Shown piece after piece: positions 9,297 through 33,788 of a stretch of 64,000 nt of DNA. How positions within the stretch are numbered: position 1 is the first letter of the stretch; every line of letters begins with the position of its first letter. Under the pieces are notes generated by a model. The model was not told the DNA's origin. It saw only the letters and a program-made list of their open reading frames with translations, and made no database searches. The position numbers were made by a program, and so were the translations under genes. The DNA comes from Cenococcum geophilum 1.58 (taxonomy: Eukaryota > Ascomycota > Dothideomycetes > Gloniales > Gloniaceae), in assembly GCA_001692895.1 (NCBI GenBank), contig KV748231.1, positions 558,001 to 622,000 of the forward strand, given 5' to 3'.

Positions 9297-9318
9297 ATTA
9301 ATTAATTACCTCAGCGAG

Positions 9319-9389
9319 CTTAGACGCGATTTTTTAGCTAGCATTGGAATAACCTATGCCGTCTTCCGAATTGCAAAATCACGTCTAAA
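9319..9389. repeat. terminal hairpin, left end of C
   Basis: CTTAGACGCGATTTT (9319-9333) pairs with AAAATCACGTCTAAA (9375-9389). The last base was G before A inserted there, as the TSD copy at 20461 shows. Confidence 0.8.
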
Positions 9390-9402
9390 TTACCTTAGCA
9401 AG

Positions 9403-9492
9403 CTCAGACGCGATTCTGTTGGTGCGGAGCCAGTCGGCCCACAAGCGAATAACTAACTACGTTTGTGGTAAACCACCAGAATCACGTCTGAG
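9403..9492. repeat. terminal hairpin, left end of A
   Basis: CTCAGACGCGATTCTGTTGG (9403-9422) pairs with CCACCAGAATCACGTCTGAG (9473-9492), 18 of 20 positions. An inner stem (CCACAAGCG / CGTTTGTGG) continues the fold. Confidence 0.85.
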
Positions 9493-10079
9493 GGACATTT
9501 CTAACGTTTATTACATTTTCCGACAATATCCGCGTTGTGGAGGTTGCGGATATTAAAATAACTTAATACTAGTATTTTATATCCTTTCCTAAAGTTTATT
9601 AATTATATAACAGAACCTAGGCTTTTAGGCTATATCATTTTTATTACTTAGGTATTCTTAGGTCTTATGCTTATTTTCGCAAAAAAAAACGCATTATTAA
9701 GGATTGTAGAACTCTATATAATTTTATTAAACGCTAGCTAATATATATAAAAACCATATAGATCTACAATAGGTACCTTAGGGCACCTACTATAGCTAGG
9801 TAGATATACAGCATCCGCGTTATACTGGATAATCTTACTTTAAACCCTACTACAAGCCAACTACCAAGTCACGGATATTTAAGTTAACCCATAGTATGCC
9901 GCTATAAAAACTTATTAGAAGGAGAGGTAGAAGGTTAAATAAGATACTAAAACAGCCGCTACCGCATTAGGTGCCGGATACTTAAACTTAAAGAGGTTGT
10001 ATAATAGAGTGGGCGCGATAGCTATGGGACCTTTAAGATTAGCTTCTTACGCTTTACGGAAAGAGCGAGGCCTAGTAGC

Positions 10080-12340
10080 TAAGTAAGGTTAATAAGGCTA
10101 TTATATTTTTATATTTGTATTATAGATATATAAAGCAGCTTAAAGTCCTTAGGTGGTTACTATTTAAGGAAAAATATATAATACTTATTATAAGAACCTT
10201 ATTTAATAAGAGTATAATAATATAAGCAATACTATATCTTCTTCGGGCCTTAGTGGTAATTATTATCTTGCTACTTAATATAATTAGTATAGAGCAGAAG
10301 GTAAAGATTAAGGAGCTTCCTAGAATAAGGCCGGTTTATATATATAAGGAGATAATATCTAAACGCCTTTTAGGGGAAATCCGCATTAGAGTATATACCT
10401 ATATTTTAATATCGCTAGAGCTATTAGCTAGGGAAAAGCTCTATAAGATTCTTACCTACCCTACTTTCCGCGCATATATTGGCTTAGTAGTAATTAATAA
10501 GGTGCACCTTATAGCTAATTAGGGGGGTTTATTTTAGAGTTCGTATATACAGCTATAAAAAGTGCGGTTGTTATTAGGGCGAAGGCCTTAGTTTACTTAT
10601 ACCGCAACGCTTAATAATATAATATTTAAGATTATATAAGAGTTGGCGGGCTTTTAAGATAATATTAATATAGTACGGACGTTAATTAACCGGCTAGATC
10701 TATTAATTATTAGAGAATATATTAAGCGAGGGAGTAAGAAGTCCTTTAAGAGCTTATACTTTGTTATAAACCGCGCATATAAAGAAGCTCTAAAAGGGAA
10801 TCTATTATCTACACCAATTAGAAGGGTGTCTAGTTAGATATCTACTATATTTACCCATTAGAGGGTTAAATATACGCTAACTCCTTATTAGATCCCAAAG
10901 ACGATTATCTTCTTTAATTTAAAGGAAATGATATTATAATGCAGAGACGCGATTTATTTATAGTTAATATATTATAGGTACCAGAAAGCGCAGGCTAGAA
11001 AAGCAGTTTAGCTTTATTATATATTATTAGCTACTACAGATAAGGATAGACTATATAAGGAGTTTAGAAAGCCTAACTCTAAAATCTATTTTAGTTTCCT
11101 CTAATACGCTTACTTATAGCGCTAATATTCCTAATATTAACTATGCTGTATAGTATTACATACCTAAAATAAAGTTAATTAATATAATATAGCAACGATT
11201 TAGGCGCGCTGCTTATAGTAGTAGTTAAATAGGTATAGTAATATTCCTAATTAAGGATTAATATAAAGGTCTATATAAGGATATTACTAGGCTAGCCAAA
11301 GGTTATAGTTATATAGGTAGAGCTTTCTAATTCTAGCCAAGTTAACTTAGACGTAAATATTATATCGCGCGAGAGATACCGCAAGAGGTATCATAAGAAA
11401 ACAGGGCTGCTAATTTTGCTAGTAATATATCTTTAAGAGTATCCATATATAGCGATATAGATTCTAATCCGTCCGCATTTAATATAGGGTAAAAGCTTAG
11501 TTTAGGCGGAATATCCGTAGTTCTACCTATAGATATCCTACTAAAGAAGCCAGCGTGGCGCCTAAAGACTAAGGCCAAGAAAAGAGTAAAGCTCTCCTAT
11601 TATATTTATGCTCTTATAAATAAGAAAAAGGGCTACTTATAAAAGATTATATTAGAGAACTATAAGGAATAGTCTCTGTCCGCTAGTAGCTAGGGTTATT
11701 ACTTTAACTATAATCCTACTTTGCAGGCTTTTAAAGAGTTTAATATCTATAAGCTGTATATAGAGGGGGTTCTAAGGCAGATATAATAAAAGGCCTTTAC
11801 TATAAGCATAAAAAACTAGTTCTGTAACTAGGCGGAAAAGAAATATTAGTATACTGTTTAGAATTTAACCTTAAGCTACGTTATATCTAATAAGCAAATT
11901 GCCGCTCTTTATAGCTACGCCTAGTATATAACTGGCTATAAGGCGCTTAAGAGAAACCTACCTAATTAGAATTAGAATTAGCTTAGTAATAATCTAGATA
12001 AGTTTATTACCTTTATTTAAGCGGAGGTAGAAAAGGCAAATTAGGTAGAGAGCCAACTATTAGCATTAGTAAGTAAATTAAAAGATAGCGTAGAGCGGAT
12101 ATTACTATAGTCTAGAGTAGTGGAGAGGCGTATAATATTAGCAGCTTAAAGTCCGTAAATATAAGTAGCCTAGTTACCTTAATTAATATCCGCCAAAAAT
12201 TCGCATATAGGGCTACTAATACTATTACCTTCTTAGTTTATATCTAGTAGGAACGCGTAACTAGCTAGCCTAAACTCTAGCTAGTAGAATACCTCTAGGC
12301 TAAGTATACTAAAACCCTATAACGGATATTAGTCCTAGCA
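10080..12340 (+). pseudogene. RecQ-type SF2 helicase relic (element A)
   Basis: An ATP-dependent 3'-5' DNA helicase of RecQ type, judged from ordered motifs in one plus frame once RIP stops are ignored. The Walker B region reads VVINKVHLIAN at 10487-10519 (ancestrally DEVH; GAT to AAT and GAG to AAG are RIP-type changes). Motif III is YTATL near 10600. Motif IV is KTIIFFN near 10900. Motif V is GANIP-like near 11120. Motif VI is QRFRRAAY at 11193-11216 (ancestrally QRFGRAAR). A Cys-rich segment, now YYFNYNP near 11700 (ancestrally CCxxCNP), matches fungal telomere-linked RecQ helicases. The C-terminus is Gln-rich and partly coiled coil. The largest surviving open piece is 10253-10522. The gene has many stops. 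It is the partner of the minus-strand gene at 17450-20250. Confidence 0.8.
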
Positions 12341-12879
12341 ACGCAATAATTAGGTTTAGTTTTTAACGCAAGGCGAATATCTAGGATCTTAAAGTTAGGC
12401 CCACTCTTAGATTTAACATTAGGCTAGGTATTAATAGCCCTAGGGTAATAATTAGCGTTAGTTATTATCCGGTATTAAATATCGGCCTCTTAGATATTAG
12501 GGTCTATACTATAATAATAGATATTAACTCCCTATAGCTCCCAGATATCTAAGTCTATACTATAGTATTAGAAACTAGTCTCTAGGGTAGGCTAGGTATT
12601 ATAGCTTATAAGGCAGCTTTATATTCTAACCCTTAAAATAATCTAGATATTAGAGCTTATAGCGGAGTATTAAGTTTTAGCCTTTAGAGCAATTTAGATA
12701 TTAAAGCTTATAATAACGTGGGTGACAGGGTTTTAACGGTTTAATGGGTTTTGACGGTTTCCAACATCAAAACTCTAAGCGAGAGGCACAGACAAAGTTT
12801 GTATGGGAAACCTTAAAACCGTCAAAACCCTGTCACCCACGTTATAGTATTAAATCTAAATCCTTAGGGCAGTCTAAGT
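12341..12879. other. degraded low-complexity C-terminal or linker region of A
   Basis: Apart from the MITE at 12716-12842, the segment holds short loose repeats (TAGATATTAGGGTCTA, ATTAGAGCTTATAG) in what looks like the Ser/Pro-rich tail of the helicase gene. No domain recognised. Confidence 0.4.
12716..12842. mobile_element. MITE, 127 bp, TA target
   Basis: Inverted ends ACGTGGGTGACAGGGTTTTA / AAAACCCTGTCACCCACGT, extending through ACGGTTT / AAACCGT, with TA on both sides (12714-12715 and 12843-12844). CpA/TpG are intact inside (TCCAACATC, GTATGGG). It interrupts the tail of the helicase gene of A, so it postdates A. It is unrelated in sequence to the MITE at 6934. Confidence 0.85.
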
Positions 12880-13330
12880 ATTAGAGCTTATAGTATAACA
12901 CTAAGTCTTAACTTTTAGATAAGCCTAAGGTTTAATATTCGTAATATAGCACTAGATCTCCAATTATAAAAAATCCTAAAGTTTAAGATCTATACCGTAG
13001 CACCAGTTCCTAGGTAGTAGGAAATCTGGAAATTTAGAATTTAGAATATAGTATTAGATCTCCGCTCCTAGAAAATCCTAAGGCTTAGAATTTAGGTTAT
13101 AATACTAAATCTCCGCTTTTAGGAAACTCTAAGGCCTAGGGTTTATAGGCTAATACTTAATCTCCGCCCTCTAAACTAGGCGTAGTTTAAAATTTATATA
13201 TTAATACTTAATCCCTATCTTCTAAATTAGGTACGGCTTAGAATTTACAGCCTAATATTTAATCTCCGCTCTTTAAGCTAAGTGTAGCTTAGAACCTATA
13301 GCCTAGTACTTAATCTCCGCCCTCAGTTTT
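12880..13330 (+). repeat. 51-bp tandem repeat (17-residue repeat)
   Basis: A period of 51 bp is clear from 13155 to 13330, where TAATCTCCGC-like cores recur near 13158, 13209, 13260 and 13311. Looser copies extend back to about 12880. In frame it encodes 17-residue units around QSPPSKLGVAQN, a Ser/Pro/Gln-rich tail probably belonging to the helicase polypeptide. Confidence 0.75.
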
Positions 13331-13595
13331 AGATATAACGTAGCTATTAGGTCCACCTCGCAGTAAGAAAAAATAAAAAGGCGTATTTACGCACTTTAAA
13401 AGTAAAAAATCCGCTTACTAAGTAAACCTAATATCTACTTATAACCCTTCTCTAGCACCTTAGCCAAGCAGTAATTTTATATTAATATTACTTTGTAAGT
13501 TAACTAGACGGCGCCCACTTACTTTAATTAGTAGTAACTTAACTATAAAGAATTTACGCGTTATAAATAAGCGTATATAAGGTAGTTAATATTTA

Positions 13596-15466
13596 CTAAA
13601 GTAAGTTATAGCGGCGATTATTTATTAGCGAGCTAATTTAATAAAATTGGCAGCATGGATATTTATCTTAATTAACCTCCGCACCTTTTCTTCTACTAAC
13701 CTTCCACCTTACAGCACCGCACTATAAACTTTACCGTTATTATTTTATCTACTATCTATTAGTATACCACTATCTATAATACCTTTATTTATACCTCTAA
13801 ATACATCCAACAGCTATTTAGTTAAGGAACTTAATATACGCGACGTTAATAATAAAATAATTAAGGACGCTTTTAAGGACGCTCTTTCTTTTACTAATCC
13901 TTTAAAATCTCTACCTAAAGAGTAAGCTTTCTAATACTAAATTATGCCTATAGCTAATATAGTTTTAGGAAATATGTACTAAAGCACTCTTTATTAGATA
14001 TAGCAGAGCACTATAATAATGCTATTGCAAAATCCGCTAGAAATCCGCTTACCTCTTTACTACCTACTTCTCTGCCGCCTACCTCTTTGCTACCTTTATT
14101 TAAGCCGCTTATTTCTTTACCTATTACTTTTAAAAAGTTTAATCCTTATTATACTTCTACTTCTTTTAAAAGGTAGGCTAATAGAATTGCTGTGTAAAAT
14201 ATTTAGTATAAGATAGCTTTTAAATCGTATATATTAGCTATACTCTTTTAATATCTTATCTACTAATTTACCTCTTATAGTAACCTAATAGAAATGTTAG
14301 AGATTTTAGATAATAATAAAAAGAGTAATCTTAATAACGCCGACTCTCCTAAAAGCCCTCCTCTATTATTTTATAATCTCTATAGTCCTCGTAATCTCTA
14401 CAGTATATAAATGGCCTAAGCTATAACGTTGGATATTGACACAAATAAGTGTCTTCCTATTTAGGTGCCGTTAGTAAATAAATATTATACCCTAAAAGCT
14501 AGTGCTTAGGAGAATATAAAGGAAGCTTGCTAGCGAATATATACCTATATCCAGAATATTAAGGGTAGCTCTAGTATACTATATAATCCGCTATACGCTC
14601 TATATATTAAATAAGATTATAAATATCACGTTTATAAGCAGAACTCTAGGCTATATTTTAGAGGCGCGTACTTAAGATATTGCTTAAGTGGTAGGTTATA
14701 TAGAAAGGTATATACTAATAATATACTACTATTCTATCGGCTAATACATATATAGGATAGTTCGCTAATACTAAAGCCGGTTATACCTTAGTGCAAAAAA
14801 CATACGCAATTAGCTTCTATTAATAGTCTAGCTAGAACACCTACTAAAAAGGTATAATATCCGTATAGCTTTATACCCGCACTATCCCCCCTCTAGAGAC
14901 CTCCCCTCCCCCTAAAACTCCTACCTATAGTAATATACGCAGCCGTAGAGGCACCCGTTCTGCTGCTGCTTTTTTTTACTCTTTTACTAATTCCTAGTAC
15001 GCGTAGTGCTGCTTCTAATACTACTGCCGCTCCCGCTAGTACAGAAAATGTTAGGGCGTATTTAGCAATTGCTGTTTCCGCGCGCGTTAATATAGTTTAT
15101 AAATAGGTAACTAAGATAGTAAAAGATACTCGGGCTATAGATCGCCAGTTAAGTAAGCTTAAAGATTCTCTAAGTAAGATAAAGGATAAACTTGCGTTTA
15201 TAAGGCGTAGTATTACTACATTTATATATAATACTGGGTTGCCAAATATAGAATTTAAGTAGATATAGGTTGGCTATTATTACGGGTTTAGAGTAATAAA
15301 ATAGTAGCTTTTATCTCTCTGCTATTGCATATATAGGAATTAAGTCTCTACCTTATATTTAATAGATATACTTAATTAATATTATAATATCTATATAGGC
15401 TAGGATAAGGATATCCGTATAAGCCAGGATAGAGATATTTATATATCTGCACCGTTAATGTTTACT
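13596..15466 (+). pseudogene. unidentified gene X, tandem copy 1 (element A)
   Basis: First unit of a direct tandem duplication of about 1.87 kb. With RIP stops ignored, a plus frame of some 550 residues can be followed. It has a central part around LDIDTNKCLPIQVPL and KGSSSILYNPLYAL, a Pro-rich stretch near 14880-14950, and a C-terminal coiled coil near 15110-15200 (VTKIVKD, then LSKLKDSLSKIKDKL). I do not recognise the family. The Pro-rich stretch and coiled coil would suit a DNA-bound accessory or scaffold protein, but this is inference. The gene is absent from copy B, so it is not needed for the element's basic structure and may be cargo. Confidence 0.5.
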
Positions 15467-17446
15467 AGGGTAAGTCACTATAGTAGCAATTATTTATTAG
15501 TAAGCTAATTTAATAAAATCGGCAGCGTGGATATTTACCTTAATTAACCTCTATACCTCTTCTTCCTCTACTAACCTTCTACCTTATAGTACTATACCGC
15601 GAACTTTATTATTATTGTTTTATATACTATCCCTTAAAATACTACAATCTATAATACCTCCATTTATACCTCTAAATAATATTAATACAAATAATAGTAA
15701 CTAGGCAGTTAAGGAACTTAATATACGCGACGTTAATAATAAGGAGTTCAATACTGTTAAGCACGCTATAACTACTCTTACTAAGCCTTTAGGCTTTATT
15801 TCTAAAGAGTAAGCTTTCTAATACTAAATTATACCTATAGCTAATATAATTTTAGGAAATATATACTAAGGCGCTCTTTATAGAATTTAGTAGATAACAA
15901 TAATAAGGATAAAGCAAAATCCGTAGAAAACCTACTTACCTTTTTACTAGATGCCTTTCTACTGCCTATATCTTTGCCATAGGCTACTTTACCATCCACT
16001 ACTTTACTATCCGCATCTCTACTGCCGCCGCCTAATATATCTAAAAAGAGGCTTAATAAGGCTTGTTTGTTTTCTTTTCTTAAAAAGTGGGCTAAAAAGG
16101 CTGCTAATACGAATATAAAGCTTAAGATAGCTATTAAATTGTATATATTAGTTATACTATTTTAGTGTCTTATCTACTAATTTACCTCTTATAGTAACCT
16201 AAATACTATATATAAGGTTTCTTTAGATAGCGAATCTTTAGACGGCGACAAAGATAAGGACCTTAATAATGCTAACTCTCGCAATCTCCGCAGCCCGTAT
16301 AATCTTTATAGTACTCCTAATATAAATAAGCGCCTTCCTATCTAAGTACTATTAGCGAATAAATAGTATACTCTAAAAGCTAGTGTTTAGAATAATATAA
16401 AGGAAAGTTACTAGCGGATATTAACACACGTCTAGAATATTAAGGGTAGCTTTAGTAAGCTATATAATCCGCTATATACTCTATATAAGAAGCATAGCCA
16501 CAAATATCGCGTTTATAAAAAGGTCTCTGGGCTATATTTTAGGGGTGCGTGCTTAAGATATTATATAGGTAGTAGGTCGTGCGGAAAGGTACATGCTAAT
16601 AGTATACTATTATTCTGTTAGCTAATACACGTATAGGAAATTTTACTAAATCTAAAGCCGGTTATACTTTAGGGCAGAAAATATGCGTAATTAGCCTCTG
16701 CTAGTAGTCCAGCTGGAACACCTACTAAGAAGGTATACTATCCGCATTTTAATAATATGGATATTGCTAATATTCGCATAGCTTTATTCTTATACTATCC
16801 CCGCCTACGCCACTACGCCTCCCCCTACTAAGACCTCCCCTCCTATTAAGACTCCTACTTATAGTAGTATGCACAGCTGTAGGGGCACCTACTCTACTAC
16901 CGCTCCTCTAACCCTTTTGCCAATTGCTAGCACGCTAGGTGCTACTATTACTACCGCCGCTTTCGCTAGCACTAGGTCTATTAGGGTATATTTAGCAATC
17001 GCTGTTTCTATATATATTAATATAGTTTATAAACGGGTAACTAATATAGCAAAAGATATTCGAGCTATAGATCGCTAGTTTAATAAGTTTAAAGATTCTT
17101 TAAGTAAAATAAAGGATAGGCTTGCGTTCATAAGGCGTAGTGTTATTATACTTATACGTAATACTAGGCTACTAGATATTAAATATAGGTAGATATAAGT
17201 TAGCTATTGCTACAGGTTAGCTATTATTACTAGTTTATAATAATAAAATAGTAGCTTATACCTTTTTGCTACTATATATATAGGAACCAAGTCTCTGCCT
17301 TACATTTAATAGATATACTTAATTAATATTATAATATCCGCATAAGCTAAGATAATGATATCTATATAAGCTAAGATAATAATATCCGCGTAAGCTAATA
17401 TAAAAATATCCGCATAAGCTAAGATAAAGATATTTATATATCTGCA
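15467..17446 (+). pseudogene. unidentified gene X, tandem copy 2 (element A)
   Basis: Second unit of the duplication. It begins at GTAAGTCACTATAGTAGCAA, matching GTAAGTTATAGCGGCG in copy 1, and runs to the 27-bp repeats at 17333-17440. The coding order matches copy 1: a LYNPLYTLY-like segment near 16470, a Pro-rich part near 16810-16860, and a coiled coil with IRAIDR near 17065. Only small pieces remain open, such as 16869-17078. Both copies carry their own RIP differences, so the duplication is old. Function unknown. Confidence 0.5.
17333..17440. repeat. 27-bp tandem repeat containing AATATCCGC
   Basis: About four units of the form AATATCCGCATAAGCTAAGA with small variants. Copy 1 of the duplication has about two such units at the matching place (15395-15450). 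The repeat ends next to the 3' end of the minus-strand gene. Confidence 0.75.
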
Positions 17447-17449
17447 CTA

Positions 17450-20250
17450 TAAAATAGCCTACTGCTATATTATATACTACGCACTAAGAAGATTATACGC
17501 TAGCTAGAGTTAATATTAATAAAAAGAACTCGATTAATATATTAAGATAAAAACGTACCATAAGCCTAAGCATTTAAAAGTCCTCTAGTATATTATCTAT
17601 AGCCTTATTAAATCCGTCCTTATAAAAGTTATATAGTAAACCGCTAATATAAGACATCCGTATATTAAAATCAGTAATACCGCCCTATAAGAGCCGCTCT
17701 AATCTAAGTTAAAGAATAGTAAGTGCCTTAAACCTAATGTCCTGCATACGCTAACGCATAATTAAATCCTTAGCAATTATATCTATAAGGGACTGGATAT
17801 TAACCGCAGGAGACTTAATTATATAATTGGATATCGTCTACTTACTAAATACATCCTTAAACTTAGTATAAAGAGGTCTAGTATAGCTTATAGTAAGAAC
17901 GCTCTACCTAAATAGAGAGTCTACTCTAAAGGTTAAGTTTCCGCGTAATTAGAGTAACTCCTTTAGCTAAAGATTTATTAGTTTATTAAGTCGATTAGCT
18001 TTAAAAAAGCTATTTAGCTATCCATAATTATTAATTAGCCCATTTATAAGTATGGCCTACTATAGTACTAGATTATACGCCTTTATTATAATTAACCTCT
18101 AGAAGTATATTATTTTAGATATATAGTTATTGCTCCTTAATCCGGCGAAGTAAAGGCAAACGTAGGCAATTATACGCTTTAAAAGGCTAATATCCGCATA
18201 CTTAATAGCATATTTCAACACTTTATATATTTTAACCACCTATAGATACCAAATATAATTAAAGAACTCTATATTAATAATCTAAGCAGGCTAGCTCGTA
18301 GTAGCAGAGTTAGGTACTATCTAAGAACCTCCGCAGGTAAAGGGCTGCAAAGAAACCAATTTATTAGCCTTATAGCCGACGTTAGAGCTAAAACCCACTG
18401 CGTAGACATCCTCAATATACTATAGAAACTGCTTAGGCGTTAAGGATCCAATATATCTTTTAATCGCACCTTCTTTGTAGATATTAAGCCTATCGCGGAT
18501 ATGTGTTAAGAAGAGTGCAATAATGCAGGCATTAAAACTATATAGTACTAGCTCCTTAAGATAGTAAAAGAGAGGGCACTTTATAGGAATATTTTATCGC
18601 CTAAGGTGATTTATATAAGTATAGAGCGTAGAGTACTACTACGTATATTACTTACTACTAAAGAAAGTCCTTATAATTATATATAGGAAGTTTAACTAGA
18701 GGTGCCAAAGACCTAAAATAGGTAGTACCTAACGGTGGCTATTATATAAGAGCGTAGCCTCTACTCACTCCCGCTTATAGGCGTAAATAAGCTTTATAGT
18801 TTTCTAGTCACCGTACGCTAGATATAATTGGTCCTAAAAATCGTTATCGTAATTAAGCTGTAGTTGCTCTAGGAAGATCGTCTTAAGTATACGGTAGTTG
18901 CTATTTATAGAAGCCTCGCTCTTTATAATAGGGCCCAGGTTTATATAGGTTATCTTTACAGATAGTAAAATATTAATCTCTGGTATACGCGGATATTTAA
19001 GCTCAGTATTAGATTTAAAAATACTATTTACGGCAGTAGAATACGTGCTTTAGAGAGCATCGGCAATTATAAAAATAGATATCTAATTTTAAACGCTATT
19101 ATATATATTACCTAGCGCCTTAGCAATATCCTTAATCTAAAGCTATACCTAGTTATACAGCATACTTTAAAAAAGGCTATTAGGGGGAATATAAGATCCG
19201 CGGATAAGCTTTCCAATAGTATAGGAATGGAAAACACTAATATCTCCAATTAACTAATATCGCGTTTGCTTAAGGTAGTTAAAATTATTATATATAATAT
19301 AAATATTATTAAGTGCGGATATTAATTAGAGGTAAGTCTTTAATAACATTAGCGCTAGTATATCCGCCGCTAGTATTATAACTTTCCTTAAAGCGTTTAG
19401 CTAATTCTATCTTTTAGCAGTTAAGCGTCTTATATCCGTTAATAAGCCCTAGTCTATAAAGCAGTAATAGAACCCAACGCTTTATACCTATACCTTAAAA
19501 ATAAAAACTAAGAAGCTAAGTAAAATAATTAGCAGAGCTTTAAGCGCGGCTTAATAAAAGGATAGATATAAGAAGAACAACCCGCCCTAAGTGCGGATTT
19601 TATAATTTATTAATTCTTAACTATGCCAATAATCCTTCTATTAGTTAGTAGAGTAGAGGGGCATATTAGCTAATTGCTTTATAGCCCTCTAAGAATTAAA
19701 TATCTTTAAACTCTAGATCTAACTTCTATAGGCTAAAGATAACCGTCTTCTGCTAAAGATTATAAAGCTCTTTATAAAAGATATCTATAACTACATTAAT
19801 TAGTTCCAAATAGATATCTACAGTCTCTATAATCGCATTATAGATTTCTTCGTCCCCTAGAAGGGTAGTAATAAGCTCCTTTACCTTCTTCTTTTTTATC
19901 TTCTTCTTTCTTTACGTATTATCTTTTTTTACAGCACTAAGCTATAGCCACGCTAAAGAAAGGTTACTAAAGGACCATCGCCAGTCCTATAAATGCTCTA
20001 AAATAACCTTAATCTTCTCTTCCTTTATTATCTAGCGCGATATCCACTCGGCAAATGCTCTAGTTAGTATTTAAATAGGCGTCCGCCGGTTAACTAATAT
20101 TATATTTATAGTGGGAGTAAGTAATTTAATTGTTAACACATCACCTATTTAGCGGCGCTTTCTGCTTAATATCGCGGAGGCTAGTAGGGTAGAGATATTT
20201 ATCGATTATAGAGCTGCTTCTACGGATTAATTTAACGGTATTTCTAAGAT
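17450..20250 (-). pseudogene. DUF6589-like protein relic, presumed transposase (element A)
   Basis: A minus frame of roughly 900 residues can be read with stops as damaged Gln/Trp. It has LAYGDQKT (18801-18824), followed after about 35 residues by LPILGLWHLQLNFLY, then HIRDRLNIYKEGAIKRYIG (about 18500) and VGFSSNVGYKANK (about 18370). A short acid-containing GDQ motif followed by a P-GLWHL segment recalls fungal DUF6589 proteins; that assignment is from memory. It is the only large protein besides the helicase shared by copies A and B, so it is the best transposase candidate, and the Asp of GDQ could be catalytic. This is inference. The two genes converge. Confidence 0.55.
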
Positions 20251-20347
20251 AATAGCTGCTATAGGGGTGTAGATTAATTTCGTTAAAGATAGTAACTGCT
20301 CTATATATAAAATAAGTTATGTCACTTAATAAAGTCTAGAAAAGTCC

Positions 20348-20439
20348 CTTAGACCATAGAATTAACTTTTTAACAAAAAAGGTTAGCGATATCCGCTTGC
20401 GGATATACGTATGTCCGCTAATTAATTCTATAGTCTGAG
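20348..20439. repeat. terminal hairpin, right end of A
   Basis: CTTAGACCATAGAATTAA (20348-20365) pairs with TTAATTCTATAGTCTGAG (20422-20439), 16 of 18 positions. The inner part contains the palindrome ATATCCGCTTGCGGATAT. The two mismatches are C/T type. Confidence 0.85.
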
Positions 20440-20461
20440 CTTGCTAAGGTAAACGTCTAAG

Positions 20462-20863
20462 AGCCTTTGGCGAGTTTTATTAAAATTATAACTAAAATCC
20501 GCCAAGCAGAGATTGCGGATATTTAATTCATTTATTTATATAACGCATTATTATTACTACATAAAGCCACTTTTTTTTTTAAGACTTAGGGCTTCTAAAT
20601 AGTATAAATTTTATAATACGGCTATTACTTAGTCCTAATATTAATTTCATTAAAGTTAAAAATCGCGTTGTTAAAATTATAAATATATATTATATCTTAT
20701 TAAATAGTCTACTAATATAGATAAAACTATACAGATCTATAGATATCTACTACTTAAAGCTATTGCAATACCTAGTAGGTGTTATAGTTAGGTCCTTCCT
20801 TAAAAATACCCTCCCTTGGCCCGGAGAGCCTCTGCTACTACTAGGGGGTAAGCTTTGGGCAGA
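20462..20863. other. left subterminal part of element C, no gene
   Basis: Continues C after the A insertion. It resembles the left subterminal parts of A (9540-9800) and B (22140-22500), including GCGGATATT at 20515-20523 and an AT-rich stretch with a poly-T run (20571-20580). No coding frame. Confidence 0.6.
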
Positions 20864-21900: not shown

Positions 21901-22043
21901 CTTCTAAGGTAAATTAATTAACTCAGGCGCGATCTGAATTTAGACTCTACTACTTATACTATAACTAAAATCGAGACTTAATCGTAATGTTGCAGTTGTA
22001 AAACTTATATGGCGCGTACTTTAATTTTCGCTTATCTTAGTAT

Positions 22044-22599: not shown

Positions 22600-25430
22600 T
22601 AATAGGCTAGGGATTATATTAAAATGGATCCCTAGCGGTCTCTACAGCTATATAGCCTGTGGAGGAAGCTACCCTAGCTTATAAGCAGCTCTTATAAACT
22701 TTAAATAAGTAAGCTAGATAAAGCTATTGCGGAGATATATCCGTACCGCGGTTATATAAAGCAGCTCAAGGCCCTAAGGGTGCTAATATTTAAGCGGTAA
22801 GATCTTATGCTTGTAGTAAAGACGTCTTTTAGCAAGAGTATAATAATATAAGCACTACTATGTCTTATACCTAATGTAGTTATTATTATTATTATTCTAC
22901 TTAACGCGATTAGGTTAGAGTAAGTAAAAAAGATTATAAAGCTACCTTATGTTTAACCTGTTTATATATAGGAGAAAACAATATTCATTAAGCTAATTAA
23001 GGATATCCGCATAGGCAGCTATATACATATCCTTATCTCCCTAAAGCTTTTAGTTAGTAATAAGCTATATAAGGTTCTAATAGACCCGATATTTCGTTCC
23101 TATATTGCCCTTATAGTGGTTAATAAAGTACACCTACTTACTAATTAGGAAGAGACCTTCCGTATAGCATACACACAACTCTTTAAAGTACGTTTAGTCT
23201 TAGTTAATAAGCCTTAGTTTATATATACCGCAACACTAAACCCATCTATATTTCAGACTATATATAAGCTAGCTAGGTTTAAACCTAATATATAAGTTAT
23301 TAAAACCCTAATTAATTGGCTAGAGCTAAAGATTATATAGAGGGTTATAACCGCGCTAGAGAAGAAGGACTTTTAAGCTCTTTACTTTACTATTACTACT
23401 GCTTTAGTATATTTATATACTACTAGTAATAGTAACTAAGGAGAAGGCGAGTAATTAAAAAGCTACTTAATATCCACACAGTAGACATACCGCTAATAGT
23501 TTAATTAACTTTAGCTAATTTTAAAGACAATCATCTTCTTTAATTCTAAGGAGTGGATAGCTGCCTATTGTAATACTATTTATAGCTAGTTAATCTATTA
23601 TAGCTATAATACTACTATTGCTAGAGAAGCGGTGTAGAGCTACTACGTAATGCTTACGGATATTAATAAAGACCGCTTATACGCCGAATACGCGCGCCCA
23701 ACGTCTTAAATTTAAATTTTTATTGCATTAGATGTAGTAGTATACAGTATAGATATCCCAGATATCTACTATTTAATTTAATATAGAATGCCTTGCTATA
23801 AATCCTATAATATACTGGCACAGCGGTTTAGCCAGGTAGGCTAAAGAGAAGGCCTCTTAGGCGAAGTAATCTTTATAGTTAAGAGCCGCTGGCGAAGTCC
23901 TTATAATAAATTAGGTGGTTCTAAGTATATATAACCTTAGTATATAGGCGATCTTCGCGTAAGCGCGCTGCGTAATAATATCCGCAGGCGATAAAACGTA
24001 GAGACTGCGGATATTGCGGGCGATGCTTTATCTATAGCGTTAGTTAGTATTAAGCAGTTAGTAGATATAAGAAGCGGGCGTAGGTTAAGCCCTAGTAGTT
24101 CTATAGTACGCCTACCTAAAGAGCTTATCGTACTAACCCTACGTCTAAAAAAGCGGTTAACTAATGCGCAGTTACATAGTAAACTGCCGTTCACCCTATA
24201 GCGGCTAGTTAATAAGGATTAGGTATACTTATAAGTAATATAACTTATATACTATAGAGACCTACAGTCTACTATTAGTAAAGACTTATATTGCAGTAAC
24301 TATAACCTAGTAATATTTATGGATTGTAAGTACAATATTTATACTAGCTATAGTATAGATATTACAAAAACCTACTAGGAGCCTATATTAAGCAATATAT
24401 AGAAGTAGTTATATAATAGGCGGAGGCTAGGTATTAGGATATATTATAAACGCCTATAGTTAATTGTGTTATACTAAATAAGTAGCTTTATCGCCTCTAT
24501 AATATAGGGTAGGTTTTAAATATAGCATCATTAAGGCAAGCAATGCCTAAGTGGAATCCTAATATCCTTAGTAAGGAGCTTCTATCCCTTATTAAGCTTT
24601 TAGCAAATAAGAAATAAAAATAGAAATAGAAAGAAATAGGGCAACTCTTAGGTTCTTCTAGGTTAATTATATAGATATTAAAGCGGTTTTCCTAAGCATT
24701 AAAGCAGCACGCTGCTATAAATAAGCGCTTATTATAGGCTCTTATATAAGCTTTACAGGTTTTAAATAGAAGATTTAAAATATTAGCGCCGTGGCAATTA
24801 GCGCCTTACTATAGCGCTAATATATTGTAGGCTAGTTAATAGTTAGCTATAAACCTCTTACTAATAACTTAGGAAGAGAATATACCTATACCTTTACTAA
24901 CTCTTAGGTCTCCAGCTCCTACTTCTCTATTATTACCCTTATACTAACCGTCAGATACATCTATACCGCTAGCAACCCGCTAGTTAGATATATCTTTATT
25001 AATACTATAAAGGCGGTTAGCGCGATTAAATAGAGGTAAACGTATATAAAGAGCACTATAGGAAATTAATGGTAACGCTAATTAGTATATAGCGGGCTAA
25101 TATTAGGCAAGGTTAGTTAATATTAGGCAGGGTTAGCTAATACTAGGTAAGTTTACCTTATATCTACTAAGCGGATATTATAACTATAGTAGCTAATATC
25201 TATTAAAATAACGCCCCCCTTTCCCTTATACCTTATACCCCTAATAAGCGCGGCCTAGGAACTAAATAGATTAATTAATTAATAATATTAATTACTTAGG
25301 AATATGTACTAGTGCTACTAACTATAGCGGATATTAAACGGTTGTAGTAATAGCTTATAGCTAATATCTTATATTACTTATTAAGCAACTTATATATAGG
25401 TTAAAGCTAGGTTTAAGTAAAGTTAGTAGG
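22600..25430 (+). pseudogene. RecQ-type SF2 helicase relic (element B)
   Basis: Same protein as in A, in the same position and strand. Visible pieces are VVNKVHLLTN near 23116-23147 (ancestral DEVH), YTATLN near 23228, KTIIFFNSKEW near 23527 and LYAEYARPTS near 23680. Upstream, around 22850-23050, the frame matches the segment before the DEVH box in A (for example the ILISLKLL-like stretch). The C-terminal third is long and Gln-rich and ends about 20 bp before the converging gene. Many TAG/TAA stops; not functional. Confidence 0.75.
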
Positions 25431-26009
25431 GAGTATAAAGCCATCTAGCTTATTATTATTGTTATAGAGATTAAGCTTATTAAACATGGCGGAAAGATTA
25501 CCGCCTAGCCGTAAATTAAACTTATTAAGGGCAGATTAATTAAGTCGTTTAATACCTAGTTATAGTAGAGGCGGCGCTTTTATCTTTGCTTACTGTGCCT
25601 AACGGCAGATAATAGAACCTTCGGCAATTACATTAGTAAGTAATTAAATATCCGCTATAGGAGATTTAATAGTATATTAAGTAGACATCCGTTCGCTAAA
25701 TATAATCTTAAACTTTATACGTAGTGGCCTTATATAATTAGTTATATAAAATAACTTAAAAACCTATAAAGCCGCAACAGCAGCGAAACTAGCCCAAAAC
25801 CACTTAATAAAGCAACCCGATATCGGAATCCTATTCCCCGCACTGAGAAACCCCATAAAACCACGTCGCCCCCATCTAGAGCATGGGGGACGACGGAGGG
25901 GCGCAGGCTTCCTACTAGAGTCGTAAGAGTTGTGACGCGCGGGAACCGAACCATGAACCAGGTAGGCAATAACGCGAAAAGGACAGCTACTAGCAATAGT
26001 AAAAACTAA

Positions 26010-27075
26010 AGGAAACACTTAAACAAATTAAAGACAATCTTATAAAAGAGGAGGAAGAAACCCTATAGCACTAAATACTTGCCTTTATTTAAGAGGTAAT
26101 ATAGTATATTAAAGCCCTCTTAACGCGTCTAGTCCTCTAGATAACCTAAAAATAAAAGACTAAGGCCTAGCTTAACCAAATTAAAGCTAGTATTAAGAAA
26201 ATCCAAAAAGAAACGCGTAAAGGAGGACCCCTAGGCCTAGGAGTTCCCCTAGTACAGGTCTAAACCTAGGCAGCCGTTACTACGTAAGCGGCCCGCACGG
26301 TAAATATAGTCGCGGCACTATAGAGAGCGAGTATACGCGTCTAGCTTAAGGAGCCCTAGGGCTATAAACTAAGGGAGCTTCTTAAGACTATTTAGAGAAT
26401 AATACTAAGCGTATACGCCGTACGCACCCTTAATAGTGGGGACGTAGATATTTATATCCCCTCCTAAATAATAAAGGACTAAATCCTAAATAGGCCAAAC
26501 GCGCCAGGACTTAGGATACTAAGGAAAGATTACCTCTTAGAAGTACTAGGAGTCCCGCTTAAGACTCTAATTAATAGCGGAAGGGACGTAGATAATTTAG
26601 AATTAACTTAATCCATTTATAAAGCCACGAAGCGCCTTATACCTAGGATAACTATTAGCTAGATCCGATAGCTATACGACCCTAAAGTATAGGTAAAACG
26701 CCAGGCAAACTCCAGCAGCGCCTAAAAAGAACCTAAGAAGACTAGGGGAATAATTATAATTAGCGTCCTAACCTAAGCAATTTAGTAAAAGATTATAAAA
26801 AGCGGGATAGTTATTAAATCCCAGCTTTTTAAGACTAGGCTATTTAAGAATAGCGTAATTATAAAGTAATGCTACCGCTATAATTAATAGGGGTATATAT
26901 AAAGCGTATGCGGAAAGCAAATAAAATATAGGCAATGTGCGGGACAATATAACACCACAGATTGCCCTAAGAAAAGGGTATCCTATATTAACTGCGGTAA
27001 AGCCTATAAAGCATAGTAAAGAAAAGAGTGTAGGACCTTTTAGAGCTACCTTAAAGGTATCTAAATAAAAAGAAT
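26010..27075 (+). pseudogene. LINE ORF1 (gag-like) relic
   Basis: RNA-binding protein of the LINE. The N-terminal part is coiled-coil rich (LKETLKQIKDNLIKEEEE near 26012-26070). The middle has a region around LRELLKTIQRIILSVYAVRT. The C-terminus holds three CCHC-type knuckles at about 26868-27010 (now CYRYNQQGY, RQCAGQYNTTDC, INCGKAY; His and Cys partly changed to Tyr by C to T). Followed closely by ORF2. Many in-frame TAG/TAA. Confidence 0.8.
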
Positions 27076-27239
27076 AGCCCTCTTAACGCAGTTGCTCCGT
27101 ATATAAGAAGCCGCAGAAACAATATACCAACCCTTAATACTAGGAAACCTTATAATCAGCACTAATAAGAAAAGAGGATGGGAAATATCTTACTTAGGGA
27201 CTTAAGAATAACCACTTAAACGGGGACCAGGTAAACTAT

Positions 27240-30200
27240 CTTTTATTAAAATAGTAAGCAGAGATAGATTATAATTAAGGCTCCGGCTTCGCGCTAATAG
27301 AGTAATAATAGTTAATAGCAAAAACAATAAGGAATAGAACATAGATATAAATGAGCTTATACCTACTTTAAATAAGTAAATATACAATTATTTAGTATAA
27401 CTACGGAAATGCAAACCAAGGGGCGTATCGCCCCTTCTTTGACAGCGTTACGCTAGCGGACTACTAGGTCCTTATAATCTAGGAGCTAGTATATAATAGA
27501 TATACTAAATTAACATACTGCCCTAGGGGATTTACACTTATATATAACGCTCTCCCTATAATAAAGGTCTGCTTTATAATTAGCCGGAATATAAATACCG
27601 CGTATTAGAAGCGTAGATAGTACGGCCCCTTTACTATAGCCCTCTAGGTACGCCTAAAGGGGCTAAAGGCTATAATTATTAATATCTATAACCCGCGCGA
27701 AGATGGCCCTTAGATTAGGGCATAGCCTAAGGTTAAAATAGCTATTAAGGAAGCTAAGGGAAAAATTATACTCTTAGGTAACTTTAACGCCTACTATCTA
27801 ATATAAGGCGGAAAGTATATAGCTAGCAAAGAGCAGGCGGAACGCCTTTTAGCCAAAACCAATACTAGAGGCCTAGTACTCGCTATACTAAAAGGAAAGC
27901 CTATATAGAAAAGAGGGTAATAGGAAAGTGTAATAGACCTCACGTTTATATCACCAGATTTATACAGAAAAGTTAACTTTTATAGTATAGTTAAGGAATA
28001 GGCCCTTATAAGAGACTATATACCAATCCGCATCTAAATTAATAACACTAGCTATCCGCTAGCGGAACGCTAGCGCCTTGCCCTTAAGAAGCTAAACTTA
28101 TAGGGCTTTCTTTAAAGTATCTAGGAGCTTAACTGGACTATATCTAAAGACCCTATTTAAGCCCTATAGGAAGGGATTAAGCAAGCACTTAAAGAATACT
28201 GCCTATAAGCACAGCCTAGCTAGTAGGCCCGTTAAGAATAGTCGCCACAGGCCATATAGCTCTACGCCGGCGCCTAATAGGCGCGACGATAGCTCTAAGC
28301 TTATAATAACCCTAAAGACCACTAAAGATATTTAGTATTAAATAATTAATTACAAAAAGAGATTAGGAGAGTCAGTTATAATAACTAGAGACGCTTTATT
28401 TATAAACTTACTAAAGATTAATTAAAACTATATAATAAGGGACTTTAGACTCTATTAAAATAGAGCAGAAAAGTAAGCGTAGTAAAGGCGGACCCCTATC
28501 TACTAGACCTTAGGAGGTCTACTAAGGATCCCTTAATAGATAATAATATCACAAAGGCCGATATTCTTATAGCTAAGTTCTTTCCTAAAACTGGAATAGT
28601 AGACCTTAGCGACATAGAGATAATAAGGGAATAAAATGTGCTTAATATTAGCCCCACTATCTTAATAGAAGAAATTGGTAAGCTTATTAGGAGTCTTCTA
28701 AATAGAAAAGCCCTAGGGCTAGATAGCATACCAAATAAAGTCCTTAAAGTAGCTGCCCTAGTTATTACAAAAGATTTAGCAGAAGTAGCTAGTTATTACT
28801 TTACTAGCGGAATAATACCAGAAAGTCTTAAAGAATCTATAACTATAGTATTATATAAAGAAGGAAAGAAAGACTACTCTTTCCTAAATAGCTATAAACC
28901 AATTACCCTTAAAAATATACTAGCAAAAGTCCTAGAAAAGTACGTAGCTAATATTATATCTAAGGCTGCGGAGGAGTATAGACTACTTCCTTAGAACTAG
29001 ATAGGAGTAAGGCGTAAACAATCCACACTATTAGCGGTAGGACTGCTTAGCTCTTACGTATAAACGGCGTAGCAAACGCGCCGCGGGTATATAGTATTAA
29101 TGCTAAGCCTAGACTTAGCAGGGGTATTTAACAACATCTCCTATAAAAGGCTCCTCTATATTTTAAAAAGAAAAGGCTTTTTAAAGTAGCTTATAGATTT
29201 TATATAAAGCTTCCTAACAGTACGTAAAACCTATATTAAGTTTATAGAATATAAGAGTAACTAGATTTAGATACAGACAGGCATCCCCTAGGGGTTACCC
29301 TTATTACTAATCTTATTCCTCTTTTTTATATTAGAGCTATTAGAGGAATTCTAGCGCCCTAATAGCAGCACGCTAGGGTTTAGCTTTATAGATAACATAA
29401 ACCTTATTACCTAGGGGGACTCCGTGGCAGAGAACTGTTAACAATTAGAGGCCGCCTATAACTACTGCGCTATATAGGCAAGTTAATATAGGGCGGCGTT
29501 CGCCCCTAAGAAGTACTAGCTTATACACTTTATAAGACAACGGCGCCATGCCACCGCAGACCTTACGTTTACCGTGCGCATCGCCAGCTACAAGACAGCC
29601 CCCTAAAAAACCAGCATGCGAGTCCTAGGGATCTAGGTAGACCCTAAGCTCTAATAGAAAGAATAGGTTAAAAAGGCTGCGAGTAAGGGCTTAGTAGCCT
29701 TTAAAGCAATATTAAGGATTACTACATCTATATAGGGCCTATTAATGCGCCGCTTACGCCTCCTATATACAGCCACCGTCTAACTAGCGATACTATATAG
29801 CGCCTAAGTGTAAGAAGTACGGGATAACGGCAAAACGCCAGTAAAAAGCTTACTTAAACTATTATAGAAAGTCCAGAACTAGTGTCTCTATAGGGTTATA
29901 GGGGCATACTAGCAAACACTAATAGCTGCAATAGAGAAGGAAGCGGCTATTCCCCTAATCCAACTCTATATTAAAACGACAGCCCTCTAAAAAGCCGCCA
30001 AGACGGCCTCTAATAGGGTAGAAAAGGAATTAGTAAAGGTACTTAACGGTATCTGGAATATATTAGTAAAGCGCTAGCAAAAAACAAAACGGCTACTAGT
30101 ACTATTAGAAGCGCTTAGGGAACGCGTAAAGGACTATAAAAATAAAATATAAGGCTTCCTTACGCACTAGAAGGACTATATAGAGTAGGAAGCTATAATA

Positions 30201-30830
30201 AACCCCTATAAGCGCGGCCAGCGGAACGCCGGCAAAGCGTAGGTGGAGCGCCGCTACTATATAGGAGGTCACCAGCACTAAAGGCAGGTAACCACCTTTA
30301 TTGCGAAATGGGCAGATTTAGAATAGCAATAATAGTAGTAGGTAAAGGCTAAAGACCGCACAGAAACCATATAGAAGACCCTATAGGGGAAACCTATAAT
30401 CCTATTATACGAAGGCCTAATAAAAGCAGAGGCTATAGCACTATTTCTTCTTTATATAGAGGTAATAGGGCTTAATATATAGCTTATATCCGTTAGTATA
30501 CCAGCGGTTCTCCTATGGTGCGAATATAGCTAGATAAAGCAGATAGTCTACTATATGCTATTCTAGTGTCCACACTACCAAAGGGCGGACTTTATAGCAA
30601 AATGCGCCTCTAAACGCCTTTAGGATGTTTTAAATAATAAAGAAAGCGCCTAAGCGGCAGCAAAATGGCTAGTACAGTTAGGTGCGTTACCCTAGTTTTA
30701 GGTAGTAAAGGTAATAGATATAGAGAATATAAGTAGATACTAGCCCTTTTAAAGCCTAGAGGACTGGTAAAAGAATAAGGGTAAAAGGATAAGGAAAGAA
30801 GGGGGTAGAGTAAGATTATCCGCGAAGCGC
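27240..30830 (+). pseudogene. LINE ORF2 relic: endonuclease and reverse transcriptase
   Basis: The endonuclease part shows LLGNFNAYY at 27771-27797 (ancestral GDFNAHH) and ESVIDLTFISPDL near 27930, typical of APE-type endonucleases. The RT part includes an open stretch 28638-28994 (KALGLDSIPNKVLK, then IPESLKESITIVLYKEGKKD), LSLDLAGVFNNIS near 29105, a GIPQGLPL-type motif near 29282 and FIDN at 29385-29396 (ancestral F-DD). A C-terminal Cys/His segment (FQCPHYQRADF) is near 30565. The clade call to Tad1 rests on these motifs. No intact frame remains. Confidence 0.85.
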
Positions 30831-33662
30831 GGCTAGTTAGCTTAATATGCAGACTTAAAGGCAGGTAGAAGGCGAGCCGCCAGCGCTCCGATGTCGGAAC
30901 GCTGCTATCTCTCCAGCGCGGCCCAAGGTGGGGTTTTCTCTAAGTTAGAGTTTTTCCTATAGAAGGTATTAGCCTGCGTGGACCCACTAGAGGGACCGGG
31001 ACGGGCGGTAAATTGAATTTATTATTATTATTAATTAGTTATATAAATACTCTAGCGAAAGAGTAAGTCTAGGTTAAATATTAAATTGCCACAAGTGTAT
31101 ATAAGCTACTTTAGCTCCCTATTAAGTAGCTCGTTATTAAAATCTATTAGGTAGTAACTATCCTATTTACCGCGGATATTTACTAAACTATTTACTAGAA
31201 TAGCTTACTAGAGCTTAGGGGAATAAGCATTTATTAAAGTTAACTAGAAGAAACGTAATATCTTTAGTAGATAGTTCTTATTTTAACTACCTATAAAATA
31301 GATATAAATGCGGGGGAGTACGCGGCTAAGTAGGCTAATATCCGCAAGCTTAATAGCGTGCTTAAGGACCTTATACGTCTCTACCAGTTATAAAAAGCAG
31401 ACGTACGTTAGAAACTCTACATTAGCAGGCTTAGAAAGTATTTATAAGGATATAGTACTGCTAGCCTACTTAAGGTAACCCTTTTGCCGTAATTCCGTAG
31501 GCTAGCTAGTATAGTTAGCCGCCTAAAAGACTTCCTAACCGAAAACCACTATACGGATATTCTTAACTACTGCTAATAAACGTTGCGAAGATAGGCTTTT
31601 AAGGTACCACTTAATATCTATAGGCGACTTAGTGTTATAAGACTCCTTAATTTAAGTATAGAGCAACGCTATAATATAAGCGTTAAAGCTATAGAGAATT
31701 AGCTCCTCCATATAATAAAACGGCGCGCGCTTAGCTAGGATATTTCTTTAACCTAGGTGGTTTATATAGGTATACAGCGTAGAGTACTCTTAGGCTAATT
31801 GCTTACCACTATAGTAATACCATATAACTATATATAGGTAGTTTAGCTTTAGGTACTAAAGAGCTAGAATAGGCAGAGCCCAACATAGGCTATTATAGGC
31901 GGATATTAACTTAGTACATTCTCCCTAATATAACCGAATAAGCTTTACGGTCTTTTAATCACTATAGATTAAAAATAGTCACGCCTTAAATGCTTTATCG
32001 GTGCGTTATAGATTTATTTAATAGAGAAAAATGTTATCTAGTACCTTATAGGTTTTAGATATAGAAGCCTCTTTAGTTATAATAGGTCCTAGGTTAAACC
32101 TAGACGTCCGCGTAGCGGGTATTACATTAATAGAAGGCATACGTGGATATTTAAACCGTGGGTTTTTGCTAAGTAATATATTAAGGCCTGGGTACGCCTC
32201 TATAATAGCTTTATAGATTAAAGCTATTAAGATCTGCTTCTATATCTTATCTTATAAATTACCTAAAGCCTCTACAATATCTAAGAACTTAATTAAAATA
32301 TCCGTATAAAGCATACTCTGTTAAAGCCTACTATTAGGTATACTTATACTAAAGACAAGCTTACCAGTTATACGCGAATAGAACGTCCTAGTATCCCTAA
32401 GTATTTAATACTAAACTCGTTAAAGGTAGTTAAAGTTATTATAGATAATAATAGTATTAGAAGCTGCACCTATTAAGCGGATTTTCACCTATATATAGGT
32501 TAGTATATACCTATACCGCGGAGATTATAGGCTAAACCTTAATTCCTAGGCTATCCGCTCCTTCTGCTAGTTTAAAGTAGTATAACCATTAATTAATCCA
32601 AGCCTATAGAGCATAGAAAGCACGTGGCGCTTAACGCCATTAGCTTAGAGATATATCCCTAATAGCCGTAGAATATAGTTTACGAAGTTTTATAAAAGGC
32701 TAAATATAAGCATAAAAGCTATTAGAACCGCACGGCCTTTATATAGAGAACATTTACATTAACCCTCTTAATATGCTGTAATTATATGCTCTAGTATAGG
32801 TGCGTAAGTCTTTATAGCTTAATAGCACTGCCTAAGGTTAAGCTGCTTAATATCCGCATATTAGTTAAAGCTGCTAAATAATAACTCTTTCTCCCTTAGC
32901 TCTTTAAGCTCTCCCTAAATAGTAAGAGTAATACTAGTACCCACTATACCGCGCTTCTCTATCTCTTTAGTATAGATATTTAGGATATTAGCATCCTCTA
33001 GGAGTTTGTTAAGGAGCTCCCTTACTCCTTTTTTCTTTAGTGCCTTACGTAAACCTTTAGCCATTATAATCCATTTAAGCGCTAGGTCTCCTATAGACAT
33101 CCACTATAACCTAAAACAGTTAATAATTACCCAGACCTTCTCTATAGCGGATATCTTCTTAGCAGATATTACAGATATTATAGATATTTTATTAACTCCT
33201 ACTTCTTTATTCTCTTAGGGATCTATATAGTTTAGCAGTAGTAAGTAGGCTATTAAGGACCGCTATTAAGCTATAAATAGCGATGGGGGAGATAACAGGG
33301 GAGACGATAGGGGAGATAATGGGGGTGGGATAAGACGGCTAATGCCCTCGGGTACTATATCCGCTATATCTCTTAATCCTCTAGCGGTATTAGTTAATAG
33401 AGAGGGTAGTTTATTATTAAAAGCTTAAGAAGACTGGCTCCTGCTAGACAAAATAGAGGGGTTTCTTTAACGCCTTTTAAATGCGCCTATAGCTAATAGT
33501 TAGTTCTAAAAAATCCATTAATTAAAGAGCTAATTAAGGCAATTCTAATATAGGTATTAATAGGATAATAGACGTGGCGGTTGCTTACATTAATTTTATT
33601 AAAGTTAATAGTTTGCCTTATATAAATAGACCAGCTTAGCTTCTAAAAGCTTGCCAAAGTGG

Positions 33663-33733
33663 CTTAAACTAAGAAATAGATGGATTGATCAAATAGGTTA
33701 GCTTGCGGATATTTATTGGTTTCTTGGTCTAAG
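33663..33733. repeat. terminal hairpin, right end of B
   Basis: CTTAAACTAAGAAA (33663-33676) pairs with TTTCTTGGTCTAAG (33720-33733); the two mismatches are RIP-type. GCGGATATT lies in the loop (33705-33713). Confidence 0.75.
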
Positions 33734-33788
33734 CATGCTAAGTTAAAATTTTCGCGATGCACGCGTAAACGCACGTGATAGCAGTCTT

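Follow-up and report, generated by a model that had tools for sequence, protein, structure and literature searches.

The locus described here raises the question of what kind of mobile element carries a RecQ-type helicase beside a protein of the DUF6589 family, and how such an element might move. It lies in the ascomycete Cenococcum geophilum 1.58 (GenBank assembly GCA_001692895.1, contig KV748231.1, positions 558,001 to 622,000 of the forward strand); the 64,000 nucleotides analysed are referred to below as the window. We interpret the elements at 9.3–33.7 kb as members of a large, recently active AcademH-type cut-and-paste DNA transposon family, in a fungus whose repeats show decay like that of repeat-induced point mutation (RIP), moving by the mechanism proposed below; we put the probability of this reading at roughly 0.85.

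An earlier reading from the letters of the window (the sequence-only reading) had claimed three copies sharing a 20-bp terminal inverted repeat (TIR), each with 9-bp target-site duplications (TSDs). All three are present, although the TSDs of copy A agree at 8/9 positions and the picture had to be amended in two respects: copy C is a non-autonomous element of about 1.5 kb, and the length of copy B includes a long interspersed nuclear element (LINE). The copies and their boundaries are as follows.

9306–21912: copy C as a whole, a non-autonomous element of ~1.5 kb split by the nested copy A
9297–9305 and 21913–21921: TSDs of copy C (ATTAATTAA)
9306–9389, plus strand: left piece of copy C (TIR 9306–9325, TSD ATTAATTAA)
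20462–21912, plus strand: right piece of copy C with a minisatellite; right TIR read from the sequence
9390–20452, plus strand: copy A, autonomous-type, RIP-decayed, nested in copy C (TIRs 9390–9409 and 20433–20452)
9381–9389, no strand: left TSD of copy A (ACGTCTAAA)
20453–20461, no strand: right TSD of copy A (ACGTCTAAG, 8/9 against ACGTCTAAA)
22032–33746, plus strand: copy B, a 6.4-kb element with a 5.3-kb LINE inside, 85–86% identical to intact B-type copies
22023–22031, no strand: left TSD of copy B (AATTTTCGC)
33747–33755, no strand: right TSD of copy B (AATTTTCGC)
25751–31031, plus strand: LINE in the DUF6589 gene of copy B, foreign to the element (PF00078, RVT_1, 6.2e-13)

The sequence-only reading would have been overturned by an absence of further copies with this TIR and 9-bp TSDs, or by the two genes never lying inside such ends; a genome search for the TIR returned further copies with 9-bp TSDs and with both genes inside the ends. 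Allowing up to 3 mismatches, the 20-bp TIR has 897 matches (441 + 456) in the 177-Mb genome of 162 contigs, 100 of these places being listed, compared with one (0 + 1) for a reversed-letter control in the same genome, and its occurrence is therefore not due to chance; a 30-bp B-type end likewise has 73 matches compared with 0 for its control. Both ends were examined in 22 copies (10 B-type, six short TIR pairs, the three in the window, two A-type and one split between contigs C88 and C43), and their TSDs agree at 9/9 positions in 14, 8/9 in three and 7/9 in two, three being unresolved. Among the 10 B-type copies, chosen by full-length helicase matches, the TSDs agree at 9/9 in five, 8/9 in two and 7/9 in one, while two have no end at the predicted place; one of these is explained by an A-type copy inserted in the end (7/9), and at contig C77, where the end is likewise absent from the predicted place, a TIR lies ~1.8 kb further out. 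Four of the six short TIR pairs have TSDs of 9/9; the pairs at C3:456884 and C13:335444 are without matching flanks, and the similarity between the two sets of flanks may mean that both are copies of a nested composite. The contig ends of C88 and C43 are halves of one copy (TSD TTGTTCGCG, joined length 6,443 bp), and the A-type copies at contigs C75 and C4 measure 10,887 bp, with TSDs CAAGAAACA and GATTAGCGC. Seven B-type stretches are 99.9–100% identical where they overlap, and the family thus moved recently. A telomeric location of the intact copies was also considered but is not supported: in four contigs that start within the element the flanks all differ, and the starts have the appearance of assembly breaks.

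As the sequence-only reading had noted, copies A and B carry two convergent genes, the RecQ-type helicase on the plus strand and the DUF6589 protein on the minus strand.

10079–11966, plus strand: copy A, remnant of the RecQ-type helicase (tblastn with the intact helicase)
14267–14752, plus strand: copy A, Cys-rich (Zn2Cys6-like) gene, unit 1 (tblastn, 60% identity to L038:8624-9112)
16181–16633, plus strand: copy A, Cys-rich gene, unit 2 (internal duplication 13585–15431 / 15454–17378)
17535–20205, minus strand: copy A, DUF6589 protein, the proposed transposase (PF20231 9.6e-30 with stops as X; tblastn)
22435–25082, plus strand: copy B, RecQ-type helicase (tblastn, 64–66% over codons 1–883)
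31034–33544, minus strand: copy B, DUF6589 protein, residues 1–837 (tblastn)
25377–25748, minus strand: copy B, DUF6589 protein, C-terminal part (tblastn)

Searches of stop-masked frames with Pfam recovered DUF6589 in copy A and a weak Helicase_C match (0.03) in copy B, and tblastn places both helicase and DUF6589 in A-, B- and D-type elements. Beside these two main genes stands the Cys-rich gene, duplicated in A-type elements and in the D-type copy examined, whose Zn_clus match falls below the cut-off (E = 0.015). No open reading frame (ORF) of at least 150 aa, stop to stop, overlaps 8–35 kb of the window, where the sequence is A+T-rich and RIP-like (TpA/ApT 1.64 for the window); intact relatives exist elsewhere in the genome, with ORFs of 957 aa for DUF6589 and 883 aa for the helicase. 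The intact helicase is found at or near eight contig ends, at full length in six and cut at residue 103 in two. In the genome the PF20231 profile has 102 scored matches among 274 candidates, and the B helicase 51 among 419, both counts being lower bounds; none of 14 control genomes matches PF20231. A DUF6589 match lies within 10 kb of 34 of the 51 helicase matches, and in 33 of these the pair is convergent, the remaining one being a cross-pair of copies A and B in the window. The genome also holds two more distant DUF6589 lineages (L012 and L022), 26–40% identical to the others, with no match to this helicase in the 4.2 kb covered for each.

Profile searches upheld the proposed identity of both proteins. 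The intact helicase matches TIGR00614 at 5.5e-30 (below that model's curated cut-off) and, above cut-off, DEAD (PF00270, 7.4e-12) and Helicase_C (PF00271, 2.3e-8), as well as PDB chains of RecQ, WRN and BLM, while its intact partner matches DUF6589 at 1.1e-68. We aligned 75 homologues of the partner, hand-chosen from 120 listed of 129 found, with mainly shorter or near-duplicate ones omitted; the named sources include Metarhizium, Fusarium, Ilyonectria, Penicillium, Pyrenochaeta and Ascosphaera. Residue D12 is conserved in all 40 rows that reach it, D172 in 74/75 and E448 in 75/75, and D378 and D444 are also present in 75/75. As we read the sequence, hydrophobic runs precede D12 and D172, and the surroundings of E448 are helix-like, an arrangement shared with DDE enzymes; from the pattern of conservation these three residues may form a catalytic triad. 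No paper on DUF6589 by name was found in the literature searched; the anatomy of the element suggests a function for it, and supports, if it does not prove, that DUF6589 is the transposase.

The sequence-only reading had guessed at AcademH, and this is still the best filing. AcademH elements encode a helicase and have TSDs of 9 or 10 bp (Kojima 2023, PMC10045372; here and below, comparisons with published systems extend to parts of the cited papers), and it is because the helicase and the 9-bp TSDs coincide with this published hallmark that we file the family under a known kind, by described features. A RecQ helicase is mentioned in Academ (PMC3627910), an Academ profile has been used in PMC8290104, and Ascomycota are among the AcademH hosts, together with Basidiomycota and Mucoromycota (PMC10799480). 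There AcademH is described as low-copy, whereas the present family has 897 TIR matches and at least 102 scored DUF6589 matches; the parts of the literature covered do not mention, for AcademH, foldback ends, a dispersed motif or a Cys-rich gene like those of this family. As far as checked, it is the foldback ends, the dispersed tag and the self-insertion described below that set the family apart from the known kind. AcademX, placed in the same superfamily in Kojima's scheme, has TSDs of 3 or 4 bp and a nuclease (PMC10045372), whereas here the TSDs are 9 bp and no XPG match was found in five proteins scanned. Nor was a MULE transposase found by Pfam, though a 9-bp TSD alone would fit MuDR/MULE, and the TIRs and TSDs distinguish the family from Helitrons, which have neither.

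Several observations weigh against this assignment: 18 of the 51 helicase matches are without a convergent partner among the scored DUF6589 matches (102 of 274), a Pfam search of the partner protein returned DUF6589 with two chance-level matches and no known DDE family, and the DUF6589 profile had only chance-level matches in PDB (best E 0.076). With DUF6589 showing no detectable relation to known DDE families, and set beside Academ by description only, the elements might instead form a separate superfamily that gained a RecQ-type helicase independently of AcademH and reached the same TSD length. We regard this as quite improbable, since two AcademH hallmarks, the helicase and a TSD of 9–10 bp (PMC10045372), would have to coincide, and AcademH is reported in Ascomycota (PMC10799480). 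A place in KolobokH, a fungal Kolobok lineage that encodes a RecQ helicase (PMC9587614) and is to that extent similar, is more improbable by far: the helicase there lies downstream of the transposase domain (PMC9587614), whereas here helicase and DUF6589 are genes on opposite strands. The target sites point the same way. Kolobok TSDs are TTAA, whereas the 9-bp TSDs of the present family vary in sequence, TTAA turning up by coincidence in two of them.

For the AcademH-type family we propose the following mechanism. Acting as a DDE transposase, the DUF6589 protein would recognise the TIR and a foldback at each end, cut there, and join the element to a target site cut with a stagger of 9 bp. The task of the RecQ helicase would be to open the folded ends, or to extrude them, while ends pair, strands are exchanged or gaps are repaired, and a dispersed motif, ATATCCGC, would be the binding site of an element-encoded DNA-binding protein, marking the whole element as self. 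We know of no explanation for the presence of a RecQ helicase in a transposon; ends that can fold, with pairing kept across families, offer it a concrete substrate.

In well-kept ends a stem usually begins 11–13 bp inside the terminus, and its loop mostly contains two smaller stem-loops, giving a structure that is mostly T-shaped. Four ends in the window fold in this way.

9403–9492, plus strand: terminal foldback, copy A left (z -5.41, 0/200 dinucleotide shuffles as good)
20347–20449, minus strand: terminal foldback, copy A right (z -5.61, 0/200)
21811–21900, minus strand: terminal foldback, copy C right (z -7.95, 0/200)
22043–22128, plus strand: terminal foldback, copy B left (z -4.65, 0/200)

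Among 17 ends folded, 15 reach z <= -3.2 against 60 mononucleotide shuffles; the exceptions are the right end of copy B, which is decayed, and the left piece of copy C, which is short. None of 200 dinucleotide shuffles was as good for 8 of 10 ends, and five were for a D-type end with a double terminus, compared with 167 and 14 of 200 for two flank controls. The two ends of the A element outrank all 539 windows of 110 bp set against them, and those of the B element all 317. A threshold of 12 of 16 paired positions was set on an initial 58 ends, 40 of them taken from the TIR list and 18 hand-chosen, of which it admits 43, compared with 7/1160 shuffles; kept unchanged for the next 40 listed ends, which were held out apart from two partly seen earlier, it is reached by 22, compared with 4/2000 dinucleotide shuffles and 3/2000 window stretches. 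The base of the stem is constant (CTCAGAC / GTCTGAG). An inner-arm base motif is present in 65 of 98 ends, and in 61 of the 65 at least 7 of the 12 variable positions are paired. When arms are exchanged between ends, this level is still attained in 215/640 draws, because many ends belong to the same class. The classes themselves differ (CATAGAAT, GTGATTCC, CACAT and CAAGAAAC), with G-C, C-G and T-A interchanging at the same place; as related copies are counted repeatedly, this is covariation between a few classes and not 61 events. In the literature searched on hairpin, subterminal or cruciform ends, coverage of which was partial and leaves novelty unproven, no title describes such ends. Parvovirus terminal repeats likewise fold back into a T, with a long stem that carries two inner stem-loops, and belong to a system that includes a helicase; the likeness lies in the shape of the ends and the helicase, with no sequence or protein kinship claimed, and the elements described here are TIR transposons with TSDs. 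One D-type copy has a B-type outer end directly before its own TIR (L043:522-631), forming a double terminus; other ends, those that bear AAACCG, may be similar. Three contigs, C14 (at its end), C16 and C97 (at their starts), break off 93–95 bp into a B-type end, at a point in the foldback's inner arm where the hairpin may have stopped reads or assembly.

Relative to base composition, ATATCCGC is the top 8-mer in A-, B- and D-type elements, with 30 copies in A (0.33 expected), 26 in B (0.2) and 31 in 10.6 kb of a D-type copy (0.3). Its shorter form TATCCGC occurs 32, 30 and 35 times respectively, compared with 5 times in 36 kb of flanks (4.2 expected), where it is at chance level next to the elements. 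Copy A of the window has 18 such sites and copy B, without the LINE, 16; the LINE itself has 2, and 3 lie in the window beyond the elements. Twenty decayed loci spanning 83 kb contain 264 sites. Of the 30 sites in the B element 22 fall in one or other of its two ORFs; they occur on both strands and are mostly not arranged in tandem. When the codons of four intact ORFs were shuffled synonymously (300 times) the mean counts were 1.2, 1.12, 0.72 and 0.23, compared with 8, 11, 6 and 3 observed, each observed count exceeding the shuffle maximum; two short Cys-rich ORFs have one site each, equal to the maximum, and a host ORF has no ATATCCGC site and 2 of TATCCGC (mean 0.24, maximum 2). The bases around the sites vary except for the nearest one or two, which argues that the sites were not produced by copying a larger unit. 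A tripeptide proxy for the motif gave 29 occurrences in 11 near relatives compared with 5.7 expected, but ADIG is conserved in any case; none of 12 pattern matches in viral contigs was confirmed. The VANC motif of VANDAL elements is a comparable case, being a 9-base motif highly enriched in one Arabidopsis transposon family, denser outside coding parts, and bound by an element protein (PMC5735166). VANC21 sites are mainly non-coding, in same-orientation arrays and often in tandem repeats, whereas most B sites lie inside ORFs on both strands; the VANC motif has a known element-encoded binder, whereas the reader of the present motif is putative.

Ends of the same kind also appear to serve as targets. 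We compared the 12 bases outside each of 80 sampled TIRs with the end region of the same kind, and 14/80 flanks (12 distinct) score 11 or more, compared with 3/800 permuted flanks and 4/400 window stretches; at a score of 9.5 the counts are 28/80, 136/800 and 72/400. Ten of the 14 matching flanks are at a stem base, at positions 13–22 or, for the inner base, at 69 or 102; another two lie in a double terminus, fitting the base of the inner end, and two are elsewhere (5 and 28). Three insertions were verified from both sides with TSDs: copy A of the window in the inner arm of copy C, the A-type copy at C75 in a B-type end, and, with TSD GAAGCTCAG, an element of 791 bp in a C/D-type end at C14. 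Since end regions are estimated to make up well under 1% of the genome, self-insertion by this estimate, from 80 sampled ends, exceeds their abundance.

Taken together, these features could be read as parts of one system, in which the element's own RecQ helicase and DUF6589 transposase act on T-shaped hairpins that compensatory change maintains, the extruded hairpins of other copies are preferred targets, with insertion at stem bases, and the dispersed 8-bp tag lets an element protein tell element from host DNA. We offer this joint reading tentatively, as something possible rather than probable. Against the roles that the proposed mechanism gives to folded ends and motif stand the right end of copy B, which does not fold (z -0.85; 39/200 dinucleotide shuffles as good), the 18/40 held-out ends that fall below the preset foldback score and the 33/98 ends without the inner-arm base motif; on the side of the tag, sites in the B element are more densely spaced outside the ORFs, with 8 in 923 bp, than within them, where 22 fall in 5520 of the 6443 bp, and across the genome ATATCCGCA exceeds its reversed control by a small margin only (7365 compared with 6462), so that the claim for the motif rests on its density inside elements. 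It is quite possible, at somewhat less than even odds, that the foldbacks are mere subterminal transposase-binding sites in inverted order that form no hairpin in the cell. Part of the TIR recurs in the constant stem base, a common feature of binding sites, and pairing is lost in many decayed ends; however, the variable arms differ between families and ends yet remain complementary, and the A and B ends are the strongest-folding 110-bp stretches scanned. That codon or mutation bias produced ATATCCGC as a side effect, with no function as a tag, appears unlikely. Containing no CpA, the motif would be spared by RIP, and its genome-wide counts are unremarkable, but such a bias has to contend with the synonymous shuffles (means of 0.2–1.2), with the chance level in adjoining flanks, and with 420 permutations of TATCCGC in A plus B, among which the motif has 62 copies and the runner-up 19. 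If the joint reading is true, DUF6589 could be named as a transposase family; if the motif is a self tag, it would be the second whole-element tag among the cases known to us and, unlike VANC targets, would also lie in coding sequence. Identical intact B-type copies at several loci suggest that the family is amenable to testing.

Some further details of the copies in the window may be added. Aligned pieces of copy A are 77–80% identical to the 10,887-bp copy at C75, and ~388 bp of the right part of copy C (21527–21914) are 92% identical to a D-type end; the right TIR of copy C is one base shorter and hence was not listed by an ungapped scan. The minisatellite in copy C (20851–21507) is G+C-rich and hardly affected by RIP, with a GC content of 0.41 and a high CpA+TpG index (0.86) at 20–22 kb. 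The alignment of copy B to the element is interrupted at the LINE, with a short duplication. In the LINE it was a stop-masked frame that matched reverse transcriptase, its 119-aa ORF alone giving no such match, and a match to PF14529 (Exo_endo_phos_2, 3.8e-5) is below cut-off. Elsewhere in the window, a G+C-rich short tandem array near its start (410–670) is open in several frames, and 39183–64000 contains long diverged repeats (42000–47125 and 57222–62353, 81%; inverted, 59433–61049 and 62364–63999, 87%) that are presumably other mobile elements. At L033:1-4786, outside the window, one B-type copy lies directly downstream of a long ORF, which we take, by eye, to be a 1,3-beta-glucan synthase.

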